Part shown: piece after piece, positions 24,875 to 33,200 of the stretch | Layout: each line of letters starts with the position of its first letter | Numbering within the stretch: the first letter of the stretch is position 1 | From: a virus | Length of the DNA stretch: 36,436 bases | IMG/VR virus record: IMGVR_UViG_3300025000_000266 | Coordinates: 1 to 36,436 of that record | Strand: one strand, 5' to 3' | Program-made: the position numbers and the translations under genes | Notes under the pieces: generated by a model | What the model was told of the DNA's origin: nothing | The model's database searches: none | What the model saw: the letters and a program-made list of their open reading frames with translations, nothing else

Positions 24875-25162
24875 ATGACCGCTTCAGCAGAACTCAAAAA
24901 CGCCGTTGCAGGACTTCTCGGGCTTCCCGCTGCCGAGCTCGGGAAAGACATTAAGCCAGACCCACACTTTGAGGCGCTTGATCCGTTTACCGCGCAGGAA
25001 GTGACCGAACGCTTCTTCAACTCTAAGGACGCCTACATTGCCGTTGAGCAGGCAAACCTCGGGCACATGACCAAGGATCAGTTTAAGGAACGTATTGCCG
25101 ATATTTTCGCCACGCTGGCGCTGAACATTCAGGAAGAAAAAACTGAAGAGGAGCACGCATGA
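24875..25162 (+). CDS. Unknown early protein ahead of the nuclease
   Basis: A 95-aa acidic protein, helical at the end (TKDQFKERIADIFATLALNI). I chose the ATG at 24875 because AAAGGAG lies 6 bases ahead. It overlaps the nuclease start by ATGA, so the two are co-translated. Not recognised; perhaps a partner of the nuclease. Confidence 0.65.
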   Translation: MTASAELKNAVAGLLGLPAAELGKDIKPDPHFEALDPFTAQEVTERFFNSKDAYIAVEQANLGHMTKDQFKERIADIFATLALNIQEEKTEEEHA

Positions 25163-25941
25163 GCAACCGAAGAAGGCTCCACCAGTCAGAGGTTCAGGCT
25201 TACCTGAAGTGCGGTCTGATGTGGCAATACCGCTACGTTGACGGTCTGAAAATGCCGCCCAAGGCCGCGCTGACACTCGGCTCTGCGGTGGACGCCGCGG
25301 TAACGAAGAACCTTCAGCAGAAGATTGAAAGCAATCTGGACATGCCAACCGAGGCGGTCCTTGATGCGTTCTCTTCTGACTTCGATACCCGCGCCAAGGA
25401 AACCGAGTGGGATCCAGACGAGGATGCGGGCAAAGAAAAGGACAAGGGCGTGCAGATGGTGAGGGCTCACCACGAACACGCTGCCCCAAAAATTCAGCCC
25501 GAAACGGTGCAGGAAAGTTTCGTTATCGAAACTGATGCGGGCTACGACCTCGGCGGCACGATTGACCTTGTTGAAAAGAGCGGGGTCATCGCTGACACGA
25601 AAACAGCAAAGGCAGCTTACGCAGAGAACGCAATCGAACGCGCCATGCAGCCCGCGCTCTATGACTTCGCTTATGAGGCGCTCCGTGGGAAGCCCGCCGA
25701 AGGGTTCCGCTATGACGTGCTCGTGAAACCCACCGCAAAGAAGCCCGCCGAATACAAGCCCGTGGCTGGAAAAGTAACCGCCGAAGATCGGGAATTCCTC
25801 TTTCTCACTATCAACAACGTCCACAAGGCAATGGAGGCAGGAATTGCGATGCCCGCGCCAGAGGCTCCGGGCGTCTGGTGGTGCAGCCGAGGTTGGTGCG
25901 GGTATGCCGCAATTTGTCCGAAATTTAAGGGAAGGAAGTAA
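25159..25941 (+). CDS. PD-(D/E)XK exonuclease with a four-Cys iron-sulfur pattern
   Basis: A 260-aa protein of the RecB/Cas4-type nuclease group. The catalytic line is GGTIDLVEKSGVIADTKTAK, with D136, D146 and K148, followed by Q164 for the QxxxY motif. One Cys lies early (C18, in YLKCGLMW) and three at the end (C242, C247, C253), the arrangement that binds a 4Fe-4S cluster in Cas4/AddB relatives. Together with the next two genes it forms a recombination module. It likely resects DNA ends. Confidence 0.82.
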   Translation: MSNRRRLHQSEVQAYLKCGLMWQYRYVDGLKMPPKAALTLGSAVDAAVTKNLQQKIESNLDMPTEAVLDAFSSDFDTRAKETEWDPDEDAGKEKDKGVQMVRAHHEHAAPKIQPETVQESFVIETDAGYDLGGTIDLVEKSGVIADTKTAKAAYAENAIERAMQPALYDFAYEALRGKPAEGFRYDVLVKPTAKKPAEYKPVAGKVTAEDREFLFLTINNVHKAMEAGIAMPAPEAPGVWWCSRGWCGYAAICPKFKGRK

Positions 25942-25942
25942 C

Positions 25943-26620
25943 ATGGCTAATGAAGTAATTGAATTGAAGCAGGAGAAAGCGGTTGATCTAGCGGTCAACC
26001 TCACAGATCGGTCTATTCAGGCCATGTCTGAGCAGAGGAACATGCTCAGGCAATTCGTTGCATCACAGCTCAAGCAGGGCCTTGACGGTGATTACGCGAA
26101 GATTCCAGGCACGCAGAAAATGACGCTCCTGAAACCGGGCGCGGAAAAGATGGCTAACATCTTCCAGCTTGGAAGCCGGATTGTCACAGTCGAGCGCGAG
26201 ATTGATCAGGCCAGCCGTTTCGCAATGTTCACCTACACAATCGAGGTTTTCCACATCCCCACGGGCAAGGTGATTGCTCAGTGCCAAGGTTCTGCGAACA
26301 CGCTTGAAAAGAAACAGGGCAACAAGGATTTCGGATTCTTGCTGAACTCGCTCGGCAAGATTGCGCAGAAACGCGCGTTTGTCGGCGCAGTAATCAGCGC
26401 CACTGGCGCATCGGATTTCTTCACTCAAGACATGGAAGACGCGGCACCGGGCAATCACGCCGCTCCAACCACAGTGAGGGCATCAGTCCCGCGCGCAACG
26501 TCTGCCACGAGCCAAGAACAGGGACCACACGTCTGCTGCGGTCGCCCCATGATGGTGTCGAAGTACAACGAAAACGAACTGTACTGCACGACATGCAAGG
26601 CAAAGAAGGCGAGGGCGTAA
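25943..26620 (+). CDS. Putative recombination (annealing-type) protein with C-terminal zinc ribbon
   Basis: A 225-aa protein of a phage family I know by DYAKIPGTQKMTLLKPGAEK and SLGKIAQKRAFVGAVISATG, then ASDFFTQDMED. Its biochemical role is not settled to my knowledge. Position between an exonuclease and SSB suggests a single-strand annealing or mediator role. The C-terminus carries CCGRPM and YCTTC, a zinc ribbon. GGAAGG precedes the ATG. Confidence 0.65.
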   Translation: MANEVIELKQEKAVDLAVNLTDRSIQAMSEQRNMLRQFVASQLKQGLDGDYAKIPGTQKMTLLKPGAEKMANIFQLGSRIVTVEREIDQASRFAMFTYTIEVFHIPTGKVIAQCQGSANTLEKKQGNKDFGFLLNSLGKIAQKRAFVGAVISATGASDFFTQDMEDAAPGNHAAPTTVRASVPRATSATSQEQGPHVCCGRPMMVSKYNENELYCTTCKAKKARA

Positions 26621-28583: not shown

Positions 28584-29201
28584 GTGGGAGCAAGAAGTGG
28601 AAAAAGGTGTGTCGAAAATGACATTAGACATACCAAAATAGTAGGTGACTTTCGGCGCGATGGCAAGCGGCTAACAGGCGCCGATCAAATCATCATTCTG
28701 CCGCGGGGTGAGTTTACCGTTGTCGATGCTGACGATTACGCCATGGTCAGCAAGCACCGGTTTCGGGTGCGCGGCGGATACGCCATCACAACAATTGATG
28801 GGCGCACGGTCGGCCTTCACCGCCTGATTCTTGACGCCAAGCCAGGACAGACCGTTGACCACATCGACGGAAACCCGCTGAACAATCGCCGTTCCAATCT
28901 GCGGTTTTGCACACATACGCAGAACATGCACAACCGCCGCAAGGACAGGGGCGGCAACACGTCCAAATTCAAAGGCGTCCACTTCGCGCCGCATGTCGGC
29001 AAATGGATTGCCAAGATCGGTTACCAGAAAAAACAGCAACACATCGGATGCTTCGACACTGAGGAAGCTGCCGCGCAAGCCTACGACCAGCGTGCGCTCG
29101 ATTTATTTGGAAAGTTCGCAAAGACAAACCTTCCTTGCTGCTTCTGGCAGGGAACGGGCGTGTGCGCTTGCGAGATTTGTCAGCCGGGCGGTGCCGCGTG
29201 A
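28584..29201 (+). CDS. HNH endonuclease with AP2 DNA-binding domain
   Basis: A 205-aa protein. Residues 78-118 form an HNH nuclease (GLHRLILDAKPGQTVDHIDG, then NPLNNRRSNLRFCT) with H93 and N101, and residues 127-182 an AP2-like domain (SKFKGVHFAPHVGKWIAKIG). This is a free-standing homing endonuclease type. The C-terminal extension has five cysteines (C185, C186, C194, C196, C199), less usual. The start is uncertain: GTG at 28584 has only a weak site. It is coupled to the next gene by GTGA. Confidence 0.82.
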   Translation: MGARSGKRCVENDIRHTKIVGDFRRDGKRLTGADQIIILPRGEFTVVDADDYAMVSKHRFRVRGGYAITTIDGRTVGLHRLILDAKPGQTVDHIDGNPLNNRRSNLRFCTHTQNMHNRRKDRGGNTSKFKGVHFAPHVGKWIAKIGYQKKQQHIGCFDTEEAAAQAYDQRALDLFGKFAKTNLPCCFWQGTGVCACEICQPGGAA

Positions 29202-30175
29202 GCATCCTTCGCGTTGTCTCTGTGTCCGGCGGGAAGGACTCCACCGCTCTTTACTGTTGGGCTATCGACCAGTGGGGCAGAGACGGATTTAAGGCCGTGT
29301 TTGCAGACACGGGCCATGAGCACCCGGTTACTTATAATTATCTGCGCAATCTTCCTGATATGGCGGGTGGTCCAGAAATCACATGGGTTAGGGCAGACTT
29401 TTCAGAGAAGTTAAAAAACAAGGGCATCGAGCCGAGCGGAAATCCGTTTTTGGACATGATGCTGTGGAAGGGGCGGGCACCAAGCACGACCGCTCAGTTC
29501 TGCACAGAAAACACCAAACTCGCACCCATGGCTGCGTGGCTTGAAACAGTCCGTGAAGATCGTGGCGACGGGGAGGTAATTCAGTATACCGGGATCAGGG
29601 CGGGTGAGAGCGCAAAGCGTGCGCTAATGCCGCCTCGCGAGTTTGTTGACTACTTTGATTGCTACACCGAGCGCCCGCTGCTTCGCTGGAATGAGGAACA
29701 GGTTTTTGATTACCTGAAATCCAAAGGCGTCCCTCCGAACCCTCTCTATGAGCATGGCTCGGCTCGCGTTGGCTGTTACCCCTGCATTCACTCGCGTAAA
29801 TCCGAACTCGCAAACATGCCCGACTGGGCGTGGGACAAGCTACAAGAGTGGGAGTCTCGCCTTGGCGGTAATTGGTTTTTGCCTGGGATCATCCCCCTCT
29901 CGCCAGAGATTGCCCGCCGAAAATCCGAAATCATGACTGAGCGGGATGCAATGGTTTGCGACGAAGAAAAGGGAAGTTCGGGAAAGCTCAAGTCTGAACT
30001 GGATCGCCCAAGATACGATGAACTCACTGCGGAACTTCTTGGCTTAATAATTCCAAAAATAAAAGACGTTCGAGAATGGTGCCGGACTGCTCGCGGGGGG
30101 CGGCAGTTCGACCTCTTCGGAGAGGACGCAAAAGACATTCCCACCTGCATGAGCACATGGGGGATCTGCGAATGA
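29198..30175 (+). CDS. PAPS-reductase / ATP-pyrophosphatase family protein
   Basis: A 325-aa PP-loop protein. SGGKDS (residues 10-15) binds ATP, FCTENTKLAP (101-110) and GIRAGES (132-138) are family marks, and VGCYPCIHSR provides C193 and C196. Members adenylate or transfer sulfur; phage relatives are named PAPS reductase or DndC-like. No dnd partners are seen here, so phosphorothioation is not shown. GTG start overlaps the HNH stop. Could also be nucleotide or tRNA thiolation. Confidence 0.8.
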   Translation: MSILRVVSVSGGKDSTALYCWAIDQWGRDGFKAVFADTGHEHPVTYNYLRNLPDMAGGPEITWVRADFSEKLKNKGIEPSGNPFLDMMLWKGRAPSTTAQFCTENTKLAPMAAWLETVREDRGDGEVIQYTGIRAGESAKRALMPPREFVDYFDCYTERPLLRWNEEQVFDYLKSKGVPPNPLYEHGSARVGCYPCIHSRKSELANMPDWAWDKLQEWESRLGGNWFLPGIIPLSPEIARRKSEIMTERDAMVCDEEKGSSGKLKSELDRPRYDELTAELLGLIIPKIKDVREWCRTARGGRQFDLFGEDAKDIPTCMSTWGICE

Positions 30176-30531: not shown

Positions 30532-31425
30532 ATGGCAAGGATTAACGTGGAGGATTCCATCTTCAAGGATGGGAGATTCTTCAAGCTGTCAATGCGCTTA
30601 GGGTCACAAGAGCGAGCATTAGGGTCGCTCGTGATGGCATGGGTGCTGGCGCAAAAGTGGTGGCTCAAGTCAGCACACCGGACAATCCCGATAGACGACT
30701 GGAAACGGTCGTTAACGGTCGTTGATGAGATCCTAGAGTGTGGGTTTGCAGAGATCACAGACACAGGCGTGTATGTATCGGGTTCACGCGAGCAGTTTGG
30801 ATGGCTAGAACAGCGTTCACAGGCGGGCCGCAAAAACATTAGGGAAAAAAGTGAACGGTCGTTAACGGGACTTCAACGGAACCTAACGGAACCTAACGGG
30901 TCGAATCCTCTTACTCTTACTCTTCCTCTTTCTCCTTCTCTTCCTCTTTCTCTTAACTCTAGCTCAATCTCTGAAAACAGTTCCCAAAACGTAAACGTTT
31001 CGGGTCCGGTGGATTTGGTGTTGTTCGAGCAGAGGGAATCCGTAAGCCGCTCCCGGAAGCCGAACCCGCTGAACGTCGCCGTATGGGATTCCTACCAAGA
31101 GGCTTACAAGGGGCGCTACGGGGAACCTCCGATCAGGAACGCGGCAGTCAATGCCAAGATCGCGCAGCTCGTGAAGCGCCTGGGTGAAGAGGCTCCCGAG
31201 GTGGCTAGGTTCTACGTCAGCCACAACAAACAGTTCTACGTCCAGAACCTCCACCCGGTGGGGATGCTTCTTTCTGATGCCGAAAGTCTGCGCACGCAGT
31301 GGGCGCTAGGTAAGCAGGTGCTTTCCACCACTGGCCGCGAAGTCGAGCGAATGCAGCATAACTCGGACGTGTGGCAGGGGGCTGCTTCCAGAATCGCGGC
31401 AAGAAAGGCAGACCAAAATGGATAG
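30532..31425 (+). CDS. O-like replication initiation protein carrying the putative origin
   Basis: A 297-aa protein. The N-terminal 95 residues (DGRFFKLSMRLGSQERALGS and onward) look like a winged-helix DNA-binding part. A low-complexity linker of Leu, Ser, Pro and Thr (residues 126-145) leads to a C-terminal domain (VWDSYQEAYKGRYGEPPIRN, then AAVNAKIAQLVKRLGEE) typical of phage replication proteins. Direct 10-base repeats lie in its coding sequence, as in the lambda O gene. AGGGGGAA precedes the ATG. It likely binds the origin and recruits the loader encoded next. Confidence 0.72.
   Translation: MARINVEDSIFKDGRFFKLSMRLGSQERALGSLVMAWVLAQKWWLKSAHRTIPIDDWKRSLTVVDEILECGFAEITDTGVYVSGSREQFGWLEQRSQAGRKNIREKSERSLTGLQRNLTEPNGSNPLTLTLPLSPSLPLSLNSSSISENSSQNVNVSGPVDLVLFEQRESVSRSRKPNPLNVAVWDSYQEAYKGRYGEPPIRNAAVNAKIAQLVKRLGEEAPEVARFYVSHNKQFYVQNLHPVGMLLSDAESLRTQWALGKQVLSTTGREVERMQHNSDVWQGAASRIAARKADQNG
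30704..30723 (+). repeat. Iteron pair AACGGTCGTT x2
   Basis: Two perfect head-to-tail copies of AACGGTCGTT within the O-like gene. The same unit opens the larger array at 30854. Confidence 0.75.
30854..30903 (+). repeat. Five-unit iteron array, putative replication origin
   Basis: Tandem units: AACGGTCGTT, AACGGGACTTC, AACGGAACCT, AACGGAACCT, AACGGGTCG. All start AACGG and repeat about every 10-11 bases, one helix turn. They lie mid-gene in the replication protein, as the lambda origin does, and are followed by a pyrimidine tract. Confidence 0.7.
30906..30954 (+). other. 49-base pyrimidine tract
   Basis: The plus strand contains only C and T apart from two A. It directly follows the iterons and encodes the Leu/Ser/Pro linker. 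Such a tract may unwind easily or form a triplex and could be the site of strand opening. Confidence 0.6.
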
Positions 31426-32014
31426 CAGACTGATTCAGATTATCCAAGCGACCGGAGAAATCTACGGCAAGACCATGACTCCCGTTGCCGCTGAACTGTT
31501 TCTCTCAGACCTCGGAGAGTTCCCAGACGCAGCAGTAGCCGCCGCGCTCACGAAATGCCGGAAGGAACTGAAGTTCTTCCCGACCGTTTCAGACGTAGTA
31601 GCTCGCATCGACGATGGGCGCGTTGGACCCGAGGAAGCCTGGGCCATGATTCCAAAAGACGAGTCTGGTTCCGTGGTCTGGTCTGACGAGATGGCGGAAG
31701 CCTACAACGTGGTCAGGTTCATGATCGAGGATGACCCGATAGCCGCACGAGTGGCGTTCAAAGAAACCTACACCCGCCTAGTAGCCGATGCGCGGTCAAA
31801 CCGTAAGCCTGTGAAGTGGTCGCCAAGTCTCGGCCATGACCCACACAGCCGCGCCTCTGCGCTGATGGACGCCGTGAACAAGCGCCGCATGGCGCTCGAG
31901 GACGCACGCACGCACGCGCCGGAACTTGAATACCAGGGAACGCCGAACCTGAAGCAGCTTGGATTCTCAGGCTTGATGAAACAACTGAATGCGCCGGCGG
32001 AGGGGGGATGTTGA
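31418..32014 (+). CDS. Putative replicative helicase loader
   Basis: A 198-aa protein. Its front (GEIYGKTMTPVAAELFLSDL, then AALTKCRKELKFFPTVSDVV) resembles the N-terminal helical domain of phage helicase loaders such as SPP1 G39P, and it lies directly after the O-like gene, where lambda P is found. The rest is helical and charged. It would hand host DnaB to the origin. No ATPase motif is visible, in line with G39P-type loaders. It overlaps the preceding stop by 8 bases. Confidence 0.65.
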   Translation: MDSRLIQIIQATGEIYGKTMTPVAAELFLSDLGEFPDAAVAAALTKCRKELKFFPTVSDVVARIDDGRVGPEEAWAMIPKDESGSVVWSDEMAEAYNVVRFMIEDDPIAARVAFKETYTRLVADARSNRKPVKWSPSLGHDPHSRASALMDAVNKRRMALEDARTHAPELEYQGTPNLKQLGFSGLMKQLNAPAEGGC

Positions 32015-32829
32015 ATGGGTTGGATTTGTTTTCAGGCTACGGTGGAATCGGTCGAGCACTCAGGCCGTGGGTGCGAACAGTGGCGTATTGTGAAATCGAG
32101 CAATACTGCCACGGCATTCTTGTGTCCGAAATGTCACGAGGTCGGATTGACCGAGCTCCAATCTGGGATGACGTGCGAACGCTGCGGCGAGAACACATCA
32201 GCGCACCGATTGACATTATCTCAGGAGGCTTCCCCTGCCAGGACGTTAGCGTTGCAGGAAATGGAAAGGGCCTGGACGGAGAGCGAAGCGGATTATTCTT
32301 CGAAGTCGTTAGGCTTGCTTGCGAGTTTCGACCGCGCTTCCTGTTCTTGGAAAACGTCCCAGGCCTCATTGTTCGAGGAATTGACCGAGTTGCCGCAGAA
32401 CTGGCCGCGAATGGGTATGTGGGACGCTACGGGGTTTTATCCGCTTACGATGTGGGAGCGCCGCACCTCCGCGAAAGAGTCTGGATTGCTGCCTACGCCG
32501 ATAGCGAGCGATGCAGACAAGGATCCAACAGACTCACTTTCTCGAATGGTTCGTCTTTGGCCGACGCCGGCAGCAAGGGATTATCGCTCGCCGGGATCGA
32601 AGGAGGGATACGGGCGCAGAACGGCAGCGGGACATCAGCAGGCGCTGAACGAGGAAGCGGTTCACCGAGAAGGACTGATTGGTGGGCAACTGAACCCGGA
32701 GTGGGTCGAGTGGTTGATGGGTTTACCTATCGGTGCGACCGAATTAGAGCCCTGGGCAACGGAGTTGTGCCCCAGACGGCAGAAGAAGCGTTCAAGCGTT
32801 TGCTCGGAATTGAAAGAGGTTGGAAATGA
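32008..32829 (+). CDS. C5 cytosine DNA methyltransferase
   Basis: A 273-aa enzyme with all main motifs: I DLFSGYGGIG (6-15), IV GGFPCQD with catalytic C77, VI ENV (115-117), VIII HLRERVW (153-159), a short target-recognition part, then EPGVGRVVDGF and the final RALGNGVVPQ (247-256). It transfers a methyl group from S-adenosylmethionine to cytosine, perhaps to escape restriction. The ATG has GGAGG 4 bases ahead. The whole gene is overlapped by another open frame starting at 32015. Confidence 0.92.
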   Translation: MLNGLDLFSGYGGIGRALRPWVRTVAYCEIEQYCHGILVSEMSRGRIDRAPIWDDVRTLRREHISAPIDIISGGFPCQDVSVAGNGKGLDGERSGLFFEVVRLACEFRPRFLFLENVPGLIVRGIDRVAAELAANGYVGRYGVLSAYDVGAPHLRERVWIAAYADSERCRQGSNRLTFSNGSSLADAGSKGLSLAGIEGGIRAQNGSGTSAGAERGSGSPRRTDWWATEPGVGRVVDGFTYRCDRIRALGNGVVPQTAEEAFKRLLGIERGWK

Positions 32830-32848
32830 AATTCTGCTCGAAGTGTAA
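32015..32848 (+). CDS. Long overlapping +1-frame gene across the methyltransferase
   Basis: A 277-codon frame in the +1 register. It is not a featureless shadow: residues 37-57 hold CPKC and CERC, a zinc-ribbon pattern; then TSAHRLTLSQEASPARTLAL, FDRASCSWKTSQASLFEEL, RTSAKESGLLPTPIASDAD, RLWPTPAARDYRSPG and GGQLNPEWVEWLMGLPIG. From memory these blocks belong to a widespread phage protein group often labelled methyltransferase-related. At GGQLNPEWVEWLMG the methyltransferase frame reads WWATEPGVGRVVDG, also a family block. The same GGAGG lies 11 bases before this ATG. Both frames may be used; translation is not proved. Confidence 0.5.
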   Translation: MGWICFQATVESVEHSGRGCEQWRIVKSSNTATAFLCPKCHEVGLTELQSGMTCERCGENTSAHRLTLSQEASPARTLALQEMERAWTESEADYSSKSLGLLASFDRASCSWKTSQASLFEELTELPQNWPRMGMWDATGFYPLTMWERRTSAKESGLLPTPIASDADKDPTDSLSRMVRLWPTPAARDYRSPGSKEGYGRRTAAGHQQALNEEAVHREGLIGGQLNPEWVEWLMGLPIGATELEPWATELCPRRQKKRSSVCSELKEVGNEILLEV

Positions 32849-33200
32849 GCAAGACAAACCCCACACCGATTTCAGCCCCGCCAAGCGCGCAAAGGACGGA
32901 TTCATGCCCTGGTGCCGCGTGTGCTGCAACGAATACCAAACAGAGCGGAGGAACAAAATGGACCGTGATGAACGCTGTCTGAACGATCAGGACTTTGGAA
33001 GGTGGATCAGGAAACACCGGCTCAGTGTCGGGTTGAAACTTCAAGACGCAGAGAAGCTAGCGAAGCTGCCCGAGTACCGGCTTGAGGATTTGGAGAATGG
33101 GCGGGGGTTCGGAATAAACAGGCGTGAGGTAGTCGCGCTGTCCCTGGTTTACAAGCTGGACAAGGGATTGATCGAGCGGAAAGCGGTGGGTGAGGCATGA
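32826..33200 (+). CDS. Zinc-ribbon plus helix-turn-helix protein
   Basis: A 124-aa protein. The front has C4-x2-C7 (FCSKCKQDKP) and C30-x2-C33 (WCRVCC), a zinc ribbon as found at the ends of HNH nucleases. From about residue 57 an XRE-like helix-turn-helix follows (WIRKHRLSVGLKLQDAEKLA). It could be a transcription factor, for example of late genes. The ATG overlaps the methyltransferase stop (ATGA) and has AGAGG upstream. Confidence 0.7.
   Translation: MKFCSKCKQDKPHTDFSPAKRAKDGFMPWCRVCCNEYQTERRNKMDRDERCLNDQDFGRWIRKHRLSVGLKLQDAEKLAKLPEYRLEDLENGRGFGINRREVVALSLVYKLDKGLIERKAVGEA

Follow-up and report, generated by a model that had tools for sequence, protein, structure and literature searches.

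In the window, that is, the whole stretch of DNA analysed here, a 36 kb virus contig of 36,436 nt, two long open reading frames are superimposed on the plus strand, to which all coordinates below refer unless stated otherwise. The first, denoted α, occupies 32008..32829 and encodes a catalytic subunit of 273 aa with C5 methyltransferase motifs I-VIII and X (PF00145, phrog_363). The second, denoted β, encodes a putative second subunit of 277 aa in the +1 frame at 32015..32848 (phrog_1008). The two overlap over approximately 812 nt, and their start codons are 7 nt apart in the sequence. A ribosome-binding site, GGAGG (31999..32003), precedes the α start by 4 nt and the β start by 11 nt, while the upstream gene (31418..32014) ends at a TGA codon (32012-32014) situated between both start codons. 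The coordinates of the two frames, the 7-nt offset and the single shared GGAGG are as given in a preliminary description of this DNA; the β blocks named there are present in the +1 frame, CPKC and CERC are 13 residues apart, and WWATEPGVGRV (α) and GGQLNPEWVEW (β) are indeed read from the same DNA, at about 32680-32714. The +1 frame is open beyond chance, since the observed 270 open codons were reached in 3 of 5000 synonymous shuffles preserving α, the mean being 100. The +2 frame over α is open for just 47 codons. HNH, PAPS-reductase-like, replication and endonuclease VII/Lar-like genes are found near the locus; these neighbours fit a DNA-modification role, without being proof of it. The phosphoadenosine phosphosulfate reductase-like gene (29135-30175; phrog_424, E 1.9e-58) lies ~1.8 kb upstream of the methyltransferase. 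The next gene (32820-33200), with endonuclease VII and Lar-like restriction-alleviation matches, overlaps the β end and probably begins at ATG 32826, overlapping the α stop. Elsewhere in the window, three long ORFs overlap one another on both strands, at 25159-25941 (+), 25186-26004 (-) and 25844-26620 (+).

The catalytic core of α, with motifs I-VIII, extends over 32014..32511, where substitutions fall mainly at α codon position 3. The Pfam match to PF00145 is confined to residues 3-168 (E 2.6e-33), and phrog_363 is matched with E 8.2e-66. The PCQ and ENV catalytic motifs are present within motifs I-VIII, and PC, EN and RxR are invariant in 41 sequences. By both sequence and fold, the best solved matches to the core are M.HhaI and M.HaeIII, which share it with α and, unlike the window, carry all motifs and the target-recognition domain (TRD) in one chain. 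The structure model of α is confident at residues 1-165 and 240-266 and disordered between them, with pLDDT <50 at residues 174-222 and 228-241. This variable linker (32512..32679), predicted to be disordered, holds no TRD in the α frame, where the TRD profile signal of the window is 0.3 bits, equivalent to none. Motif X (RCDRIRALGNGVVPQTAEEAFKRL; 32728..32805, residues 241-266, pLDDT ~90) follows, scoring 46.2 bits in comparison with a maximum of 18.0 in β-preserving shuffles. Because the model is disordered between residues 165 and 240, α is regarded as a catalytic domain plus motif X without a TRD. The methyltransferase frame had been described as intact with every motif, which proved to be wrong: PF00145 ends at residue 168, and the TRD and motif IX are absent from the chain bearing the catalytic core and are assigned to β.

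Regarding the latter, residues 60-205 match phrog_1008, labelled 'DNA methyltransferase' (E 1.7e-27), and the C-terminal end of the same profile is matched by α residues 235-267. It was this shared match that initially suggested that α and β are parts of one enzyme; a single profile joins what the window splits over two frames, and its label is silent on half-enzyme status. No Pfam family was found for β. The PTPxAxD region (SGLLPTPIASD ... WPTPAARDY; 32471..32683), supported by shuffles and by substitutions at β position 3, is taken as the probable TRD from its place between motifs VIII and IX and from its variability. The putative motif IX (GQLNPEWVEWLMGLPIGAT; 32684..32740) is supported by shuffles, invariant residues and a weak IX-X register. 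Here, the most invariant block of β, LNPxWVEWLMGxPxGWT, resembles motif IX (cf. RRLTPQECARLMGFD of the single-chain enzyme L207), and P228, E232, M235 and G236 are invariant in 71 sequences. Alignment of separate-type β ORFs, described below, with six single-chain enzymes placed IX and X in register, weakly (E 0.002, probability 14%); the identification of motif IX in β thus draws on its pattern and position together with this weak alignment. Pfam matched nothing in 7 separate-type β ORFs and therefore does not confirm motif IX. A PDB profile search using β gave no match, and with a pLDDT of 58 for the AlphaFold model of β alone, for which Foldseek returned no hit, no fold is claimed. At 32680..32727, β GGQLNPEWVEWLMG lies over α WWATEPGVGRVVDG, a doubly conserved block. 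Its substitutions track the β wobble (24/5/4) and its α reading keeps 44% of its bits when β alone is preserved, so that the α block mostly, though not entirely, shadows motif IX. The CPKC-x13-CERC pattern (32123..32185) had been proposed as a zinc ribbon of the β family. It is not a family feature: of 183 loci, just 2 (the window and L096) have CxxC...CxxC, and no zinc family of Pfam scored above cut-off on β.

Relatives of β were found in 114 phage records by tblastn and, by profile scan, in viral contigs (at least 548 confirmed) and in GTDB species genomes (314, spread over many bacterial phyla, with one assembly bearing an archaeal label). About 190 loci, most chosen for the β motif without regard to its frame, were kept, and all six reading frames were scanned with profiles for the catalytic core, the β middle part, motif IX and motif X. 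In every intact locus (about 180 loci) motif IX is +1 relative to motifs I-VIII. Motif X is read in the α frame in most cases: 94 of 96 for viral loci, 73 of 80 for those from genomes and 11 of 15 for the phage records that were scored. The larger chain carries motifs I-VIII and X, and the smaller chain motif IX, in the window and in 178 of about 190 loci. In seven loci motif VIII is the last motif of α, and TRD, IX and X follow one another in canonical order within the β ORF; these separate-type loci, with both IX and X on the second chain (L005, L006, L169, L176, L178, L193 and L197), include phiBT1, Wile, Samy and Heather. Versions of the second protein largely separate from the methyltransferase frame, which the preliminary description had proposed to look for, therefore exist, and they also carry motif X. 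No single-chain fusion containing this TRD was found among the about 190 loci. One candidate for a natural α-β fusion, L182, was rejected and looks like a frameshifted or deleted copy. Another relative, in E. coli PCP07014 (L205 1501-2262), is annotated as a pseudogene and has an internal stop.

In M.EcoHK31I, the smaller chain comes from another frame within the larger gene, is about 176 aa long and lies in the 3' part of that gene only. The second chain of the window is likewise in another frame, which is +1 in all intact loci, whereas β spans nearly all of α and starts 7 nt downstream. This enzyme (YGGCCR) consists of two polypeptides, the larger with motifs I-VIII and X and the smaller with motif IX, and its predicted TRD was placed in the larger chain (PMC3404938). 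The window shows the same division of motifs and differs in that its TRD region is under β-frame selection. By this analogy, the pair looks like a two-subunit C5 methyltransferase of the M.EcoHK31I type. M.AquI (CYCGRG) is similarly split, with motifs I-VIII on the larger chain and IX, X and half of the variable region on the second (PMC3404938); unlike this second chain, β in the window lacks motif X, which is in α. The phiBT1, Wile, Samy and Heather loci can be described as AquI-like members of the overlapping-frame family. Paenibacillus phage Diva has the same +1 overlap in gp49/gp50, with gp50 annotated 'g49 internal gene', hypothetical and without function, and differs in that β starts 184 nt inside α.

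One alternative is that α, having a minimal TRD, is active by itself, with β a separate overprinted protein, for example a regulator or an anti-restriction factor. That β has no structural match and that its N-terminal half is under mild selection of its own would suit this account, but α contains neither motif IX nor any folded TRD, the most invariant β block stands at the place expected of motif IX, the seven separate-type β ORFs carry TRD, IX and X in order where α ends after VIII, and M.EcoHK31I needs two proteins, according to the title of a 1995 report cited in PMC3404938. Such an arrangement is considered improbable. Since the enzyme is incomplete without β, β makes more sense as the missing half of the enzyme than as an overprinted gene with no relation to it; of the earlier proposal of a real second gene on an intact enzyme, the second gene stands and the intact enzyme does not.

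The start region was compared across loci. In most loci the β start is located 4-7 nt from that of α, and no β start is close to the α start in 52 of 163. Where a nearby β start exists, its initiation codon is ATG in 100 of 111 loci, that of α being ATG in 60. Median distances from the ribosome site are 4 nt for α and 8 nt for β. Asn codons at the α N-terminus are AAT in 91 cases and AAC in 2, in comparison with 81 and 172 elsewhere in these genes; as AAT alone creates the β ATG, this bias indicates that the β start is conserved. The TGA between α ATG (32008) and β ATG (32015), together with one GGAGG, suggests coupled initiation at either start, and translational coupling with the upstream gene is possible. 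The start region also bears on the idea that one chain is made by a programmed frameshift from α to β after motif VIII, perhaps with a return for X. The joined segments would stand in canonical order and the 52 loci without a nearby β start codon would be accommodated, but most loci have a conserved β start 4-7 nt from that of α, and the inclusion of motif X would take two opposite shifts. This route is considered improbable, slightly more so than a separate overprinted protein.

Selection acts on both frames, for the most part in different segments. When 91 loci were shuffled so that α was preserved, with the window left out of the profiles used for scoring, β motif IX fell from 61.5 to 4.3 bits and the β TRD from 43 to 4.5 bits. 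In the window itself, motif IX scores 60.0 bits and the TRD 45.1 bits, the maxima in α-preserving shuffles being 38.0 and 20.3, respectively. In eight independent pairs, substitutions by α position 1/2/3 numbered 49/19/152 in the core and 20/7/45 in motif X, in comparison with 90/24/18 in the TRD and 13/4/3 in motif IX. The freest position is thus α 3 in the core and motif X; in the TRD and motif IX it is α 1, equivalent to β position 3. The p-value for the difference between core and TRD (5e-23) is indicative, as are those of all the selection tests, because the loci are related. Among α-synonymous changes in the core of 33 independent pairs, 0 β stops were observed against 45 expected, a depletion that is partly built in as only the open part of β was counted. 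The same changes are milder in β than expected, including within the first 210 nt (p=0.003, indicative), and this conservatism is unaffected by the way of counting. The +2 control frame displayed neither stop depletion nor conservative changes in the 33 pairs. The N-terminal half of β is under mild selection of its own; residues 1-152 are about half a shadow of α, as about half of their bits survive shuffles that preserve α alone. Extra constraint at α synonymous sites, which had been named beforehand as a check, is therefore present, both as milder β changes and as the AAT bias at the start, and within the open part counted no +1 stop was found among close relatives. That β is a translated shadow, unexpressed and conserved via α alone, is scarcely credible and the weakest of the alternatives, for although residues 1-152 keep roughly half of their profile score when α alone is preserved, the loss of the TRD and motif IX in α-preserving shuffles contradicts it for both segments, and the codon-position switch between core and TRD, the lack of β stops, the conservative β changes and the conserved β start codon all stand against it. 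The shadow envisaged in the preliminary description is thus real for about half of the conservation of the first 150 β residues, while that of the TRD and motif IX is β's own.

As described above, the locus very probably encodes a heterodimeric C5 methyltransferase from one DNA read in two frames, with β most likely serving as the subunit for TRD and motif IX in a two-frame methyltransferase that resembles M.EcoHK31I and has near-full-length overlap. For translation, assembly, activity and biological role of the α-β pair, we infer the following process. The α chain would provide the cofactor site, the catalytic cysteine, motifs I-VIII and motif X, while β, from its own start 7 nt downstream in the +1 frame, would provide the target-recognition domain and motif IX, both chains being made from one mRNA and one ribosome site. 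Together they would assemble into an active enzyme, the sequence specificity of which would be determined by β. Regarding specificity, 65 of 95 pairs with core DNA identity >85% have β-TRD identity <40%; for example, L028 and L069 share 96% in the core and 27% in the TRD, and L028 and L146 display the reverse, with 83% in the TRD and 76% in the core. Near-identical cores with swapped TRDs indicate that the 3' part appears to move as a cassette carrying both frames, and recombination swapping the 3' half would change specificity with both frames kept. The likely role would be modification of phage DNA against host restriction.

Annotation of these loci is uneven. The listed frame varies, being β only in Vibrio phage 1.236.O (L009 2001-2699), α only in 1.091.O (L202 982-1704) and both in Diva (L188 1953-2657). 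In phiBT1 (L005 1853-2353 and 1971-2903), gp9.1 carries the annotation of a methylase that 'may be inactive', and an unannotated +1 ORF downstream, overlapping gp9.1, carries TRD, IX and X; the phiBT1 enzyme may be complete as two chains. In 12 genomes, many non-full-length PF00145 genes end in the overlapping-type WW..EP.VGRVAHG...RVDR..GLGN (L215, L217, L220, L221, L222 and L235), and the overlapping class may account for a sizeable fraction of the C5 methyltransferases of prophage-rich genomes. One frame alone is listed in most annotated records examined, so that half of the enzyme, presumably the specificity-setting one, is absent from databases, and overlapping-type enzymes may be given a wrong assignment or taken for inactive. 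M.EcoHK31I had already provided the example of a two-polypeptide enzyme in which motif IX has a separate chain, and a literature search of mostly open papers found no paper on this arrangement in phages; in the present family the overlap extends over nearly the entire gene, a second start is conserved, and the arrangement is found in at least 548 viral-contig and 314 genome stretches. A wider reading, offered tentatively and with somewhat less than even confidence, is that of a very common, largely unrecognised phage and prophage class with twin starts, a dual-frame 3' specificity cassette that phages exchange as one unit, and a β N-terminal half, overprinted on the catalytic core, that serves a separate function, for example in subunit assembly. 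As one DNA switches its functional frame by segment, the locus is a good test bed for the evolution of overprinted genes and for recombination.
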